Below are positions 9,254-35,900 of a DNA stretch of 64,000 nucleotides, piece after piece (the stretch's first letter is position 1; each line of letters starts with the position of its first letter). This DNA is from a virus. The stretch lies in IMG/VR virus record IMGVR_UViG_3300028883_000992, positions 1 to 64,000 of that record; one strand, given 5' to 3'. Below the pieces are notes generated by a model. The model did no database searches, was not told where the DNA came from, and saw only the letters and a list, made by a program, of their open reading frames with translations. A program made the position numbers and the translations under genes.

Positions 9254-10072
9254 ATGAATCCCTACGAGAAAATCACAGAGGTCTTTGTCAGACACATAGA
9301 CCACGCCATAGAGCACGATACGCCCCTTGTATGGCAAAGAGACTGGACAGCAGACTCCCCACGTTCTTATAACGGGCGTGAATATGCGGGACTGCTTAAT
9401 CAGCTTGTGCTAAATGCTGAAAAAGTAACACATCAATACAAATCTAACATCTGGCTTACTTTTAAGAAAACAAGTGAGTTAGGTGGAAAAGTTAAAAAAG
9501 GTGAAAAATCTACTATTGTCACATTCTGGAAACCTATAACAGTTAAAGAGGATGATGAAGAACGCACAATTCCACTACTCAGATATTACAATGTATTTAA
9601 TGTAGATCAGACAGATATTGAACTTGAATTTGAAGAAGTGGATTTCACAATATTAGATGCAGAACAACTTATTAAAAATTGGAAAGACTGCCCTGATATT
9701 AAAAATCATCCTGAAAAAGCATTTTACAGAGTTGGTGAAGATACGGTTTATATTCCTGACATGTCTCAATTTAAAAGTGCAGAAGGATATTATCAAACAC
9801 TTTTCCATGAGCTTATACACTCAACAGGACATAAAGATAGGCTCAATAGAAGTCTTAAAAATGGATTTGGATCAGAAAAGTACGGGATAGAAGAATTAAT
9901 AGCGGAAATAGGAAGTGCATTTTTGTGTAATAAAACAGGGATTGCACCCAAAATTGACAATTCTATTGCATATTTAAGAGGGTGGCTCAAAGCAGTTAAA
10001 GATGATATAAAAATGATAATCTATGCTTCACAGAGATCACAGAAAGCAGTTAACTACATAATAGGAGATTAG
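9254..10072 (+). CDS. ardC: ArdC-type antirestriction protein (ssDNA-binding + zincin domain), 272 aa
   Basis: The N-terminal ssDNA-binding domain (about residues 3-120, with VWQRDW, SYNGREYAGLLN and a LGGKVKKGEKS segment) matches the ArdC_N/DUF1738 pattern. The C-terminal metallopeptidase domain carries HELIHSTGH (residues 185-193: His185, His189, His193) and the downstream EELIAE helix. ArdC proteins of plasmids and phages protect incoming DNA against restriction. AAGGAG lies upstream and a strong promoter is at 9196. Base composition at the 5' end is less AT-rich than in the neighbours, consistent with separate acquisition. Confidence 0.92.
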   Translation: MNPYEKITEVFVRHIDHAIEHDTPLVWQRDWTADSPRSYNGREYAGLLNQLVLNAEKVTHQYKSNIWLTFKKTSELGGKVKKGEKSTIVTFWKPITVKEDDEERTIPLLRYYNVFNVDQTDIELEFEEVDFTILDAEQLIKNWKDCPDIKNHPEKAFYRVGEDTVYIPDMSQFKSAEGYYQTLFHELIHSTGHKDRLNRSLKNGFGSEKYGIEELIAEIGSAFLCNKTGIAPKIDNSIAYLRGWLKAVKDDIKMIIYASQRSQKAVNYIIGD

Positions 10073-23040: not shown

Positions 23041-23058
23041 ATTTAATAATAATCATAT

Positions 23059-23131
23059 CGGGGTATAACTCAACTGGCAGAGTATCTGACCTTTAATCAG
23101 ACGGTCGTAGGTTCAACTCCTACTACCCCGA
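23059..23131 (+). tRNA. tRNA-Lys (anticodon TTT) with unusual C33
   Basis: Acceptor CGGGGTA/TACCCCG, D stem ACTC/GAGT, anticodon stem TCTGA/TCAGA, T arm GTAGG-TTCAACT-CCTAC and discriminator A. The 7-nt anticodon loop is CCTTTAA, so the anticodon is TTT (Lys) but position 33 is C instead of the near-universal U. No CCA encoded. Confidence 0.88.
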
Positions 23132-23144
23132 TATAAGGAGAATT

Positions 23145-23929: not shown

Positions 23930-24421
23930 GTGCAAGTTTACTCAGAATATACAGAAGGCAAAATTCACAAAACCAATGAAGGTAGATTAGTCATCTATTT
24001 AAAAAAGAAAGGTACTAAAGGCAAAATAGTTTCTTATCCAAAATATTTAATAGAAAAACATTTAAATAAATATTTGGCAAGAAACGAAACAGTACATCAC
24101 ATTAATGGTAATTTTTTAGACAATAGAATAGAAAATCTCAAAATAATAGACAGAAGTAAACATGCATCAAATCATGCAAAAAGACTTGTAAAACAAGAAT
24201 TTATATGCCCTTATTGTGGTACAAAATTTAAATTAAGCGGAGAACAATTGCATGATACTGATCACAACAGAAAAAAGGGCAAAGCAGGACCATTTTGCAG
24301 TAGGAGTTGTGCAGGAAAATATGGAGCATTTGTTCAAAATGGTGGTAAAAAATTAGAAGTAAAACAAATTAAAAAAACATATTACACTAAATTATATGGG
24401 GATGTGCCCGAACTGGAATAG
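23930..24421 (+). CDS. HNH endonuclease (homing-type), 163 aa
   Basis: HNH core VHHINGNFLDNRIENLKII (residues 55-73) followed by a C2C2 zinc module CPYCG ... CSRSC. GTG start directly after the upstream stop. This arrangement is typical of free-standing phage homing endonucleases. Its last eight codons run 24 nt into the tRNA-Leu gene, so the tRNA's 5' end doubles as coding sequence. The likely cut site is an allele of a neighbouring locus (inference). Confidence 0.88.
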   Translation: MQVYSEYTEGKIHKTNEGRLVIYLKKKGTKGKIVSYPKYLIEKHLNKYLARNETVHHINGNFLDNRIENLKIIDRSKHASNHAKRLVKQEFICPYCGTKFKLSGEQLHDTDHNRKKGKAGPFCSRSCAGKYGAFVQNGGKKLEVKQIKKTYYTKLYGDVPELE

Positions 24422-24481
24422 GGAACGGATTTAAGCTCCGTCGCTCGTAAGAGATTGAGGGTTCGACTCCCTCCATCCCCA
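24398..24481 (+). tRNA. tRNA-Leu (anticodon TAA)
   Basis: Class II tRNA: acceptor GGGGATG/CATCCCC, anticodon stem ACGGA/TCCGT with loop TTTAAGC (anticodon TAA, normal T33), long variable arm around CGCTCGTAAGAG, T arm GAGGG-TTCGACT-CCCTC, discriminator A. The first 24 nt overlap the HNH coding sequence. No CCA encoded. Confidence 0.93.
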
Positions 24482-24495
24482 CTTAAAAGGAACAT

Positions 24496-25647
24496 ATGAA
24501 AATATTTGAAGGTAAAAGAGTTCATATAAAATCTTGGTGCAATAATCCAGAAGAAGGTGCTATACAACAAGCACTAAATCTATCATCACTACCATTTATA
24601 TTCAAACATGTTTGTCTAATGTCTGATTGCCATGAAGGTTATGGTATGCCAATAGGCGGTGTTATAGCAACAAAAAATATTGTTATACCAAATGCAGTTG
24701 GTGTAGATATTGGTTGTGGCATGCTGTCTGTAGAAACAGATATTGATAATTTAGACAAAGATCAAATAAAATCTATAATGGGTAAAATTAGGGGACTTGT
24801 CCCAGTAGGATTCAACCATCATAAAACTAACCAAGAATGGAATGGATTTAACAATATCCCACTTATTGATGTTATAAGACAGGAAGTTGATAGTGCACGC
24901 AAACAGCTTGGTACATTAGGTGGGGGTAATCATTTTATTGAATTACAAACAGACGGAAACCATATACATTTTATGATTCATAGTGGTTCTCGTAACTTTG
25001 GATATAAGATTGCAAAACATTTTAATGAAGTGGCTACAAAACTATGTCATAGATGGTACTCAAATATCCCTGAAATTAAAGGTGAAGATGGATTAGCGTT
25101 TTTACCTATAGATACAAATGAAGGTCTAACATATTTTACCGCTATGAGTTTTGCTCTTGATTTTGCTCAAGCCAATAGAAACCTAATGGCCGAGAGAGTA
25201 AAAGAAGCCATCAATTCTGTTGTGTCCTGCAATTTTGAAGAGTCAATAAACATTCATCATAACTATGCGAGATTAGAAAATCATTTTAAGCATAATGTTA
25301 TAATACACCGTAAAGGTGCTACTTCAGCTAAAGAAAATGAAATAGGTATCATACCGGGATCACAAGGAAGCTATTCATATATTGTACATGGACTAGGAAA
25401 TCCAGAATCATTTTATTCTTGTTCTCATGGTGCAGGTAGAAAAATGAGTCGTAAAAAAGCAAGGGAAACATTGGAGATTAATCAAGAAACAGAAAAAATG
25501 GGCAACATTGTACATAGCATAAGAAATAAGCAAGACTTAGACGAGGCTCCGGGTGCATATAAAGATATAGATATAGTTATGGAAGAACAACAGGATTTAG
25601 TAGCGATAAAAAAGAAACTCTATCCATTAGGAGTAATAAAGGGGTGA
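24496..25647 (+). CDS. rtcB: RtcB-type RNA ligase, 383 aa
   Basis: RtcB joins 2',3'-cyclic phosphate (via 3'-phosphate) and 5'-OH RNA ends using GTP and Mn2+. Diagnostic motifs: SDCHEGYGMPIGGV (43-56), GVDIGCGM with the metal cysteine (69-76), LGGGNHFIE, HSGSRNFG, HHNYA, RKGATSA and the guanylylated-histidine motif SCSHGAGRKMSR. Length matches short bacterial/phage RtcB proteins. It starts 15 nt after the tRNA-Leu gene and in this genome probably repairs tRNAs cut by host nucleases (inference). Confidence 0.96.
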   Translation: MKIFEGKRVHIKSWCNNPEEGAIQQALNLSSLPFIFKHVCLMSDCHEGYGMPIGGVIATKNIVIPNAVGVDIGCGMLSVETDIDNLDKDQIKSIMGKIRGLVPVGFNHHKTNQEWNGFNNIPLIDVIRQEVDSARKQLGTLGGGNHFIELQTDGNHIHFMIHSGSRNFGYKIAKHFNEVATKLCHRWYSNIPEIKGEDGLAFLPIDTNEGLTYFTAMSFALDFAQANRNLMAERVKEAINSVVSCNFEESINIHHNYARLENHFKHNVIIHRKGATSAKENEIGIIPGSQGSYSYIVHGLGNPESFYSCSHGAGRKMSRKKARETLEINQETEKMGNIVHSIRNKQDLDEAPGAYKDIDIVMEEQQDLVAIKKKLYPLGVIKG

Positions 25648-25736: not shown

Positions 25737-26086
25737 GACATCCTACCCCTACATTAGACATAAAAGAAACAGTAGAATTTTTAACAATTTGTTCACCATT
25801 TGATGAGGGTTTAAAAAGATCGGAAATTACAGTCAGAGACAATAAACTTGTTTTAGATAACAAGACTATTAATAATATAATATGTGATATTTTGGTTGTT
25901 GAAAAAATAGATATTGCACTCATGATGTTTCTTAATAAAATAGGACGTATACAATTTAAAGAAAGGTTAATGGAATTTAGTGACGGTGACACAATAAGTT
26001 TAATGTTTTTTGAATTATATAAACAATATAGTCAGAAATTTAATATCAAAGAATATAATAAAATAGCAAGGGAATACTATAAATGA
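25733..26086 (+). CDS. Hypothetical protein, 117 aa
   Basis: ATGA-coupled on both sides, between RtcB and patatin. Helical C-terminal half, with an N-terminal segment RHPTPTLDIKETVEFL. No motif recognised. Confidence 0.75.
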   Translation: MRHPTPTLDIKETVEFLTICSPFDEGLKRSEITVRDNKLVLDNKTINNIICDILVVEKIDIALMMFLNKIGRIQFKERLMEFSDGDTISLMFFELYKQYSQKFNIKEYNKIAREYYK

Positions 26087-26916
26087 CAGGATTAGTATTA
26101 TCAGGTGGTGGTTCTAAAGGTGCTTTCCAAGTAGGTGCATTAGACTATATCTTAAATCACACTGATATTAAGTTTGATTGCATAGATGGAGTATCAACAG
26201 GATCACTTCAAGGTTCTATGGTAGCTACAGATCAATTTGCATATCTTAAAAATATGTGGCTATCCATCAAAAAAGACAGTGATATCGTAAAACATAGTTG
26301 GTGGAAATTAATGTTCCTAAAATTTCCATATAGTTTCACTGGGTTAGAGGGTTATTTAAAATACGCACTTAAAACCGGATACAAAATACCGTTCTTTTGT
26401 GGAGTTGTTAATCTCGACACCACTAAATATAGAAGTATAAGGAATCCGAATTATAGAGAAATATTGGCATCATGTTCTATACCTGTACTTTTTGAACCTG
26501 TTTACTATTATGAAAAACCATTGGTAGATGGTGGTCTTAGAAATGTAACACCTTTGAAAGATGCTATTGATAGAGGCTGTGACAAAATTATTGTCATAAC
26601 TTGTGGCAATAGAAAAGATGAATTACCCTTCTACCCACAGGAAAAATACAATGTTAAAGATGCGTTATTCCGTACCTTAGATATAATGGTTCATGAGATT
26701 AAATTAAATGACTTTCTGTTTAGAGATATTACTCAAGCAGAGAAGATAAATACATGGGTAGAAAATGGATTTGAAAAATATCGTAAGATAGACATCACAG
26801 TTATAGAGCCTCAACATAAATACACTGTTAATATGGATAGTCTTAAATTTGACCCTACAATAACAGAAGCATTGATGAATCACGGATTTAATCAAGCAAT
26901 GGAGGTATTAAAATGA
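26083..26916 (+). CDS. Patatin-like phospholipase, 277 aa
   Basis: All patatin elements are visible: oxyanion loop SGGGSKGAFQ (7-16), nucleophile elbow GVSTGS (Ser38) and catalytic DGG (149-151). The expected reaction is hydrolysis of acyl ester bonds in phospholipids by a Ser-Asp dyad. No signal peptide, so it is cytosolic. Possible roles are membrane damage at lysis, lipid remodelling or abortive defence against other phages. It lies two genes upstream of a cell-wall amidase, which favours a lysis-related role (inference). Confidence 0.93.
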   Translation: MTGLVLSGGGSKGAFQVGALDYILNHTDIKFDCIDGVSTGSLQGSMVATDQFAYLKNMWLSIKKDSDIVKHSWWKLMFLKFPYSFTGLEGYLKYALKTGYKIPFFCGVVNLDTTKYRSIRNPNYREILASCSIPVLFEPVYYYEKPLVDGGLRNVTPLKDAIDRGCDKIIVITCGNRKDELPFYPQEKYNVKDALFRTLDIMVHEIKLNDFLFRDITQAEKINTWVENGFEKYRKIDITVIEPQHKYTVNMDSLKFDPTITEALMNHGFNQAMEVLK

Positions 26917-28053: not shown

Positions 28054-28315
28054 ATCTTGGGACTATCTTGATAAGCATACATATTGGTATGTATTACTTA
28101 TATACAAAAATAGTAGTGTGTATAAGATATTCCTAAATAAAAACAGTATCAATATAAAAGGCAGTTATCTTGAACAACCAACACCATTAAATGATTTAAT
28201 TAACAGACTTATAAAGTTAGCTTTGATTGATAGCAAATTAATGTCATCATCTAATCTTGTAATACTCCAACAACTTAACGGAGATATAAATGGATTTTTC
28301 GGCAATCAACAATAG
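28046..28315 (+). CDS. Hypothetical protein, 89 aa
   Basis: Start placed at the ATG opening IESWDYLDKHTYW; an in-frame GTG at 27992 would add 18 hydrophobic residues that coincide with the membrane peptide in another frame. Soluble, no motif known. It overlaps the nucleotidyltransferase start by 26 nt. Confidence 0.62.
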   Translation: MIESWDYLDKHTYWYVLLIYKNSSVYKIFLNKNSINIKGSYLEQPTPLNDLINRLIKLALIDSKLMSSSNLVILQQLNGDINGFFGNQQ

Positions 28316-29039
28316 CATAATTTATGCTTACAGGGGCAGTATAGCCCATAATCTATATATCCCACCTGAAGAACCTTTAGGTACAGACGATAAAGACTAC
28401 ATAGGAATATGTATTTCACCTATTAACTATTATACTGGACTTGATAAGTTTGATCAATATGAATATCAAGAAAACGGTGACGATATTATAGTTTATGACA
28501 TTAAAAAAGCATTTAGACTTTTGCTAAACAGTAACCCCAATATATTGTCTATTCTTTGGAACAGACCTGATATGTATATACGCATAGAACCTTTAGGGCA
28601 GAAAATTATTGATAATCGTCATATATTTGCATCCAAAAAAATATATAAGACATTTGTTGGATATGCTCTATCCCAACTAAAGAGGATGAACAAGTCACAA
28701 TATAAGGGTTATATGGGATCAAAAAAAAAGGAATTAGTTGATAAATACGGATTTGATGTAAAAATGGCAAGTCACACAATAAGACTATTAAAATGTGGTA
28801 TAGAATTTTTAGAAACAGGTGAATTTGAAGTTTATCGTAAAAAAGATCGTGAAGAACTTATAGCTATCAAACAAGGTAAATGGAGTTTTGAGGACATAAA
28901 CTTATATGTTAATAATCTTATGTATGATATTGATAGTGCATATAAGCACAGTCAACTACCGCCTCAACCAAACTACAATACTGCAAATGAACTCCTGATG
29001 GACGTACTTGCAGAATACTTTAGAATAGGAGAATTATGA
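28290..29039 (+). CDS. RlaP-type DNA polymerase beta superfamily nucleotidyltransferase, 249 aa
   Basis: The N-terminal signature YRGSIAHNLY (14-23) followed by TDDKDYIGI (32-40) is the GS...DxD active site of pol-beta nucleotidyltransferases of the COG3541/RlaP group. That group was named for association with RNA ligases in RNA repair operons. Asp34 and Asp36 are the likely metal ligands. The helical C-terminal part (residues 105-249) fits the family. The rtcB gene a few genes upstream supports an RNA repair role; substrate and nucleotide remain unknown. Confidence 0.8.
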   Translation: MDFSAINNSIIYAYRGSIAHNLYIPPEEPLGTDDKDYIGICISPINYYTGLDKFDQYEYQENGDDIIVYDIKKAFRLLLNSNPNILSILWNRPDMYIRIEPLGQKIIDNRHIFASKKIYKTFVGYALSQLKRMNKSQYKGYMGSKKKELVDKYGFDVKMASHTIRLLKCGIEFLETGEFEVYRKKDREELIAIKQGKWSFEDINLYVNNLMYDIDSAYKHSQLPPQPNYNTANELLMDVLAEYFRIGEL

Positions 29040-34230: not shown

Positions 34231-35193
34231 ATGAAACAAGACATACTCAACTATCTTACACATATATATCATCAACATCTACTTAACAGTAAGGATGCTG
34301 CCAATTACTTAAAAGAACGCGGTATTAAAAAATCTGCGAAGAGATTCAAGTTGGGATACTGTACTGGGAATATAGGGTATCAGACGTTACTTAGAACATA
34401 TACAGAGAACCAGTTAAAAGATACAGGTTTTTTCAAATGGAATAAAGACCCTTTTAATTATCGTATTATATTCCCATTAATTAAAGGTGTAGACACATTA
34501 TATTTTACATCACGAACAATAGGCGACAAAGAACCTAAACATAAACATCTTACAGGACCAATACCTGTGCCATTTAACTACAATACCATTCATAATGATA
34601 ATATTATAATAGTTGAAAGTCCTATAGACGCTATAACATTAGAACAAGCAGGTTATTATGCAATGGCTTCATTGGGATTGTCAATTAAATCTCATACTGC
34701 CATTGAATTACAGGGAAAAAATATCTTTATTTTGTATGATTACGATTTACATAATGCAGGTCAAGAACGTGCAATAGATTTAGCTGACCTACTTTACAGG
34801 AATAAAGGTAAAGCACATATTTGTCAATGGCCTAAGAACAATAGAAAAATGGATGTCAACTGGCTTTACCTAAAAGACAAAAAGAAATTTCAAAATAATA
34901 TAAATATATTACTTAATAACTCTATAAGATTTGAAGAACATCCTGCCTTTGAAGAAAAAAGAAAGGAAAAAATATGGACACCTGCACAAAGGGGAAATTT
35001 CCGTGAATTAGTAAAAAAATATGGATGGAAGATATTCGGAAATAACCTTGTTAGAATACCCTGTCCATTCCATAATGATTCAACACCATCATTAACCATC
35101 TATCTTAATACTAATAGCTCATATTGTTTCGGTAAATGTAAAAAAAGTTATAGTGCGATAGAAATAGATCACGCATTACAAGGGAAAATATGA
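34231..35193 (+). CDS. DnaG-type primase with C-terminal zinc-binding domain, 320 aa
   Basis: Primase catalytic core at the N-terminus: ANYLKERGIKKSAKRFKLGY (24-43), RIIFPLIKGVDTLYFTSR (78-95), then a TOPRIM domain with IIIVESPIDAITL (Glu129, Asp133) and FILYDYD (Asp170, Asp172). The CHC2-type zinc finger that DnaG carries at its N-terminus is instead at the C-terminus: RIPCPFHNDSTPSLTI (Cys278, His281), then YCFGKC (Cys299, Cys303), preceded by the usual helix FRELVKKYG. No helicase-binding domain is seen. It would prime DnaE synthesis together with the DnaB-like helicase. Confidence 0.83.
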   Translation: MKQDILNYLTHIYHQHLLNSKDAANYLKERGIKKSAKRFKLGYCTGNIGYQTLLRTYTENQLKDTGFFKWNKDPFNYRIIFPLIKGVDTLYFTSRTIGDKEPKHKHLTGPIPVPFNYNTIHNDNIIIVESPIDAITLEQAGYYAMASLGLSIKSHTAIELQGKNIFILYDYDLHNAGQERAIDLADLLYRNKGKAHICQWPKNNRKMDVNWLYLKDKKKFQNNINILLNNSIRFEEHPAFEEKRKEKIWTPAQRGNFRELVKKYGWKIFGNNLVRIPCPFHNDSTPSLTIYLNTNSSYCFGKCKKSYSAIEIDHALQGKI

Positions 35194-35900
35194 TTTACTA
35201 CAAGTTTCTAAAGGAAGACAGACGAGCATCATTTGTGAATGGCTTCCAATGGCCTAAACCACCAAACAAACCCGATCCTGTTATTGGTAATTTGGTGGTG
35301 TGTAAAAACGGATACCACTTATGCCGTATAGAGGACTTGCCCCATTGGTTGAATCAGGAACTTTGGATCGTTGGCTGTGATGAAACGGAGTTAATAGAAT
35401 CAAATAATAAGGTGGTTGTTCGCCACGCATGGCTTGAAAAGCAGGTAGACACATGGAACGAAAAAACTGCACGACTCTTTGCTGCCGACTGTGCCGAACA
35501 CGTGCTGCATTTATTTGAAAGTAGATATCCAGACGATAAACGGCCACGTAATGTAATTGGGGCTACAAGAGATTATGCACATGGTCGCATATCACACGAT
35601 GATATGATTGCCGTATGGACTGCCTCAAAAAATGCCGCAGGACGTGCCGAAGATGCCGAAGATACCGCAAAGATCGCCGCATTTGCAGCAGCCGCAGCCG
35701 CATTGGATACCTCATGTGCTGCTGCAAAAGCAGCCGCATGGACTGCCTCAAGGGCTGCCGCATGGGATGCATCAGGTGCAGCATGGGATGCATCAGGTGT
35801 AGCATGGGGGGCTGAATCTGACGCATGGGATGCTGCATGGGATGCCGAACGGCAGTGGCAGACACAGCAATTACTCAAGTACATAAACAATGAAATATAA
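35190..35900 (+). CDS. Phage protein with DUF7666-like head and Ala/Trp-rich repeat tail, 236 aa
   Basis: The N-terminal segment (YKFLKEDRRASFVNGFQWPKP, VVCKNGYHLCRIEDLPHWL) resembles the head of the repeat protein at 11721. A middle part (KTARLFAADCAEHVLHLFE, PDDKRPRNVIGATRDYAHG) recalls predicted immunity-like proteins. Residues 140-220 are Ala-rich repeats with AAWDASG units, probably a long helix. Markedly GC-rich compared with neighbours, which keeps several spurious frames open. ATGA-coupled to the primase. Function unknown. Confidence 0.8.
   Translation: MIYYKFLKEDRRASFVNGFQWPKPPNKPDPVIGNLVVCKNGYHLCRIEDLPHWLNQELWIVGCDETELIESNNKVVVRHAWLEKQVDTWNEKTARLFAADCAEHVLHLFESRYPDDKRPRNVIGATRDYAHGRISHDDMIAVWTASKNAAGRAEDAEDTAKIAAFAAAAAALDTSCAAAKAAAWTASRAAAWDASGAAWDASGVAWGAESDAWDAAWDAERQWQTQQLLKYINNEI

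Follow-up and report, generated by a model that had tools for sequence, protein, structure and literature searches.

The lysine tRNA encoded by this phage at 23059-23131 of the window (the whole 64,000-nucleotide stretch of DNA analyzed here) has a cytidine at position 33, where nearly all elongator tRNAs have a uridine. Our preferred reading, to which we give a probability of about one half, is that it is a working lysine tRNA for the decoding of AAA codons and that C33 is a rare, phage-typical, tolerated change and not a tailored escape from a lysine-tRNA-cutting nuclease. That the tRNA is a working one is supported by an intact cloverleaf, the UUU anticodon, A73, and the place of AAA as the second commonest codon. 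The virus record is 91,135 bases long and encodes three tRNAs in all, Gln(UUG), Lys(UUU), and Leu(UAA). The features referred to below are:

23059-23131, plus strand: tRNA-Lys(UUU), intact cloverleaf, CCA not encoded (ARAGORN, Rfam, direct reading)
23091, plus strand: position 33, C and not U (direct reading)
23092-23094, plus strand: anticodon UUU (ARAGORN, direct reading)
23094-23099, plus strand: U36AAUCA41, the letters of the AriB (PARIS) cleavage site in E. coli tRNA-Lys (motif from a passage of PMC12409363)
15187-15257, plus strand: tRNA-Gln(UUG) with U33, loop CTTTGAC (ARAGORN, Rfam)
24398-24482, plus strand: tRNA-Leu(UAA) with U33, loop TTTAAGC (ARAGORN, Rfam)
24496-25647, plus strand: RtcB RNA ligase (PF01139, E=6.8e-106)
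28290-29039, plus strand: RlaP, RNA-ligase-associated pol-beta nucleotidyltransferase (PF10127, E=7e-17, a family match)
9254-10072: ArdC-like protein

The earlier note on this DNA had described a tRNA-Lys(UUU) with the loop CCTTTAA, the stem TCTGA/TCAGA and C33, and had named structure scoring as a check. With ARAGORN placing a tRNA-Lys(ttt) at 23058-23132 and Rfam RF00005 scoring 66.6 bits over 23059-23131 (E=2.6e-12; cut-off 29 bits), both programs and direct reading agree with this description. Pairing is complete in every stem, with a 7 bp acceptor (CGGGGTA/TACCCCG), U8, and a loop that reads C32-C33-UUU-A37-A38. The identity elements for lysyl-tRNA synthetase, A73, U35, and U36, are all present. 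The U33 expected of a functional tRNA-Lys(UUU) is replaced by C at 23091; viral tRNAs with C33 are known, so this lowers the claim of function but does not exclude it. A frame-shifted loop with the anticodon UUA (an ochre reader) was rejected as it needs an eight-base loop and the paired stem leaves seven.

In the window's predicted genes (window G+C 33%), AAA, CAA, and TTA are used 53.7, 23.7, and 32.6 times per 1000 codons, each being the top codon for its amino acid among the codons listed, and AAA ranks second among all codons. In the mechanism that we propose, the host would mature the tRNA, add CCA, and charge it, and the tRNA would then decode AAA at times when the host supply runs low, through either codon demand or tRNA damage. 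It would act alongside the Gln(UUG) and Leu(UAA) tRNAs and the RtcB/RlaP repair genes, and C33 would be a rare tolerated change, of a sort met repeatedly across many phage tRNA isotypes.

Counting against this explanation, C33 should carry a cost. A U33C change in yeast tRNA-Gln gave a phenotype that was interpreted as poor decoding or charging (passage of PMC3664417), and Elongator, a eukaryotic enzyme, no longer modifies the wobble U once U33 is C: it binds the C33 tRNA with similar affinity yet does not react (passage of PMC11096365). By analogy with this unproductive binding, the tRNA could be an uncleavable decoy that occupies an anticodon nuclease and not a substitute in translation. A decoy would need to be highly abundant, whereas a promoter and terminator scan found sites near the tRNA-Lys at no more than chance level, and we regard this idea as highly improbable.

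The frequency of C33 was assessed in several viral samples. In IMG/VR, the tRNA-Lys(UUU) pattern with C33 matched 18 stretches and the pattern with U33 matched at least 120; the U33-Lys scan and the scans with base 33 or the anticodon left open each gave a sample taken in fixed scan order. With base 33 open, C33 was present in 1/81 lysine tRNAs among the matches listed (80 of at least 120 stretches) versus 13/81 for the Ile(GAU) pattern, also among the matches listed (Fisher p=0.001), where the other Ile(GAU) tRNAs had U33 (67) or A33 (1). With the anticodon open, and at least four anticodon-stem pairs required, the unique C33 tRNAs among the matches listed (n=98) included Ile(GAU) (49), Thr(UGU) (12), and Lys (8), and the unique U33 tRNAs among the matches listed (n=135) included Arg(UCU) (39), Thr(UGU) (31), Lys (6), and Ile(GAU) (5). 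The lysine share does not differ between these sets (8/98 versus 6/135, p=0.27). In the pattern samples C33 is frequent in phage tRNA-Ile(GAU), with many differing tRNA bodies (e.g. loci L151, L152, L163, L195), and two phage arrays carry a C33 tRNA-Lys together with a CUA-anticodon tRNA, called Pyl by ARAGORN and possibly an amber suppressor (L010, 9986-10060; L017, 11429-11503).

ARAGORN found 2,599 tRNA genes in 383 loci and the window, and 1943 were kept after leaving out the window's own tRNAs, those with the anticodon used as bait for their locus, the cellular C33-Lys loci, and duplicates. Base 33 was C in 54, G in 8, and A in 4 of these, and the preponderance of C over G or A fits transitions or functional tolerance. 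C33 occurred in 3/55 lysine tRNAs and 51/1888 other tRNAs (p=0.19). Since loci baited with C33 may derive from C33-rich phages, the count was repeated without them. In this least biased, de-duplicated sample C33 was found in 21/1010 tRNAs, spread over at least 14 anticodons, and is a rare state. It was present in 2/18 lysine tRNAs (p=0.05) and in 1/27 Ile(GAU) tRNAs (p=0.44); the strong isoleucine excess therefore rests on pattern-matched tRNAs and does not show in this small sample. We read these counts as C33 without a consistent lysine excess in viruses, borderline in one small sample. The presence of C33 at low frequency in many kinds of phage tRNA is poor evidence for the dodging of one lysine-tRNA-cutting defence. 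The borderline lysine value also counts against a merely tolerated change, and plain tolerance is insufficient to account for the uneven isotype spread (Ile 49/98 with C33 versus 5/135 with U33 among the matches listed).

This unevenness allows for another reading, in which U33C would be a general phage device that removes the U-turn uridine and so blocks anticodon cleavage or a wobble modification read by the nuclease. The Ile(GAU) peak in the pattern-matched tRNAs would then suggest that hosts have a nuclease against tRNA-Ile that is yet to be described, and the lysine tRNA of this phage would be the PrrC/RloC counterpart. We consider this unlikely.

Across 84,980 species genomes, the C33-Lys pattern matched 16 stretches. 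The two from Microvirga (L362, L374) have a degenerate 5' half and were missed by ARAGORN, and U33 copies are present elsewhere in those genomes. Several of the others lie in dense tRNA arrays and may be owned by phages or mobile elements. Five arrays in Firmicutes genomes of rumen type (L363, L365, L367, L370, L371) have a tRNA-Lys that varies at other positions and is constant at C33, which argues that C33 is stable there. The open C33 pattern matched 4/198 genomes in the phylum of the Bacteroidaceae genome G008 (locus L360), namely G008 itself and three with one Val(GAC) type, and 1/200 in the phylum of the Microvirga genome G010, namely G010 itself. The U33 pattern had 437 matches in 61 genomes of the G008 phylum. 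C33 in these 61 genomes (2/439) is less frequent than in viruses (21/1010, p=0.02), a rough comparison because the cellular sample is pattern-based and the viral one comes from ARAGORN. C33 tRNAs are nearly missing from the sampled cellular genomes.

The viral and cellular C33-Lys tRNAs (18 and 16) fall into 21 sequence clusters, the window and the truncated Microvirga pair included, and all five anticodon-stem pairs are complete in 7/8 C33-Lys tRNAs among the matches listed. In tRNA trees made with base 33 masked, 16 changes are required to explain the 16 lysine rows that have C33, and 17 to explain the 52 such rows of isoleucine. It looks as though lysine C33 is scattered and isoleucine C33 is inherited in part, in trees that are weakly resolved as they were built from 74-base tRNAs. 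The lysine rows fall singly among U33 relatives, like young changes, and given that U33 is nearly invariant, C33 could be an early damaging change in a decaying gene that is no longer selected. The complete stems, an Rfam score close to that of the U33 tRNA-Gln (67.2 bits), and the fact that only the Microvirga pair looks truncated among the 16 cellular stretches make decay quite unlikely. An error in sequencing or assembly at 23091, or a variant carried by a minority within one population, would suit a single-contig record for which the searches gave no close relative; the same change is found in many unrelated records, which indicates that C33 is a natural state, and we judge an artifact very unlikely. 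The phage's RtcB has relatives at 7 loci (53-65% identity) and its DNA polymerase at 27 (at most 34%); neither search found a close relative of the phage, and tRNA-Lys was absent from the stretches read at these loci. When 15 neighbouring window proteins were compared with the RtcB loci, only RtcB and RecA had matches.

The RtcB motifs DIGCGM, GGNHF, IHSGSR, HHN, and SHGAGR align with solved RtcB, and the metal- and nucleotide-binding motifs are kept. The gene starts 13 bases past the tRNA-Leu, and a tRNA directly adjoins RtcB both in the window (24398-25647) and in two RtcB relatives (L377, 9146-10425; L380, 9205-10544; Asn and Pro). A search of solved structures for relatives of RlaP gave none up to E=1. 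The predicted role of the RlaP family is to put lost nucleotides back ahead of ligation, for example after cleavage by RloC (passage of PMC7824862). The phage has an RNA-repair set, RtcB with its catalytic motifs and RlaP by family match, and tRNA damage is thus plausibly part of its biology as judged from sequence. A patatin-like phospholipase (PF01734) lies between the two at 26083-26916, and an Imm5-like immunity family match (PF21805) is found at 35190-35900. The record also encodes RecA, a DnaE-type polymerase, TerL, and a portal protein.

The earlier note had inferred that this tRNA is a substitute for the host tRNA-Lys that resists PrrC. In this explanation C33 would protect against a tRNA-Lys nuclease that cuts between positions 33 and 34, through a block of the cut itself or through loss of the wobble modification that the nuclease reads, in line with the Elongator result, and the tRNA would replace the destroyed host tRNA. 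The inference is supported in part: PrrC cleaves 3' of U33, as does RloC (passage of PMC2610378), which places C33 at the scissile bond, and the phage has RtcB and RlaP. A phage tRNA-Lys can counter such a nuclease, as that of SP15 rescues phage from PrrC170 (passage of PMC11555353), and the 2/18 value for lysine is in its favor. The T5 and SP15 tRNA-Lys have U33 (loop CTTTTAA), so C33 is not the known route, although it could be another. The other counts show no lysine enrichment, and RtcB occurs in 3/18 C33-Lys records versus 2/32 U33-Lys records, a non-significant difference (p=0.34) from comparison records hand-picked among 80 listed loci with longer contigs preferred. We did not make a lysine-specific escape from PrrC our main reading because C33 lacks a consistent lysine excess; resistance of this type is doubtful, and a nuclease role for C33 is possible but not favored. 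In the literature passages on these nucleases, we found no case in which C33 was assayed against one.

Two further defences were considered. The T5 tRNA-Lys resists AriB and rescues phage from PARIS, and placing the motif into it does not suffice for cleavage (passages of PMC12409363). The UAAUC|A cleavage motif that T5-type evasion would have lost is present in the window tRNA, and escape from PARIS was rejected; as the motif alone is insufficient, its retention counters escape without proving sensitivity. LshCas13a cuts tRNA-Lys, -Gln, and -Leu (passage of PMC11042736), the same three amino acids as the phage's three tRNAs. Evasion of Cas13a was rejected as the U-rich anticodon of the tRNA-Lys is unaltered.

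The wider observation is the phage-biased occurrence of C33, which we have not seen in print; an open-access literature search, mostly below full-text level, gave no account of phage tRNAs with C33. If C33 is protective, one base offers a simple test of nuclease-proof tRNA evolution in phages, and the isoleucine bias would name the target to look for. If it is not, a highly conserved tRNA base is dispensable in a translation-competent setting. The base-33 census is the part worth following.

Evasion of tRNA nucleases through anticodon-loop changes in phage tRNAs has been proposed for mycobacteriophages and VapC sites (passages of PMC10264068), and the likeness to the window tRNA is a single anticodon-loop base change beside a nuclease cut site. 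There, the host nucleases and the changes that cause insensitivity were known; in the window tRNA the cut site is that of PrrC and RloC, and C33 recurs across many isotypes. The same passages exempted coliphage tRNA-Lys(UUU), accounting for it by repair ligases, and the window phage too has such a ligase, RtcB. Jumbo phages carry RtcB and RlaP repair sets (passage of PMC7824862) and the window phage shares RtcB, RlaP, and tRNAs with them, but at 91 kb its record is not that of a jumbo phage, and its repair role is predicted. The tRNA-Lys(UUU) of T5 and SP15 resemble the window tRNA in being phage-encoded and in having a seven-base anticodon loop with A37 and A38. The T5 tRNA departs from that of its host at positions 39 and 41 of the AriB site (passage of PMC12409363) and the window tRNA does not, and both T5 and SP15 keep U33 where the window tRNA-Lys has C33.
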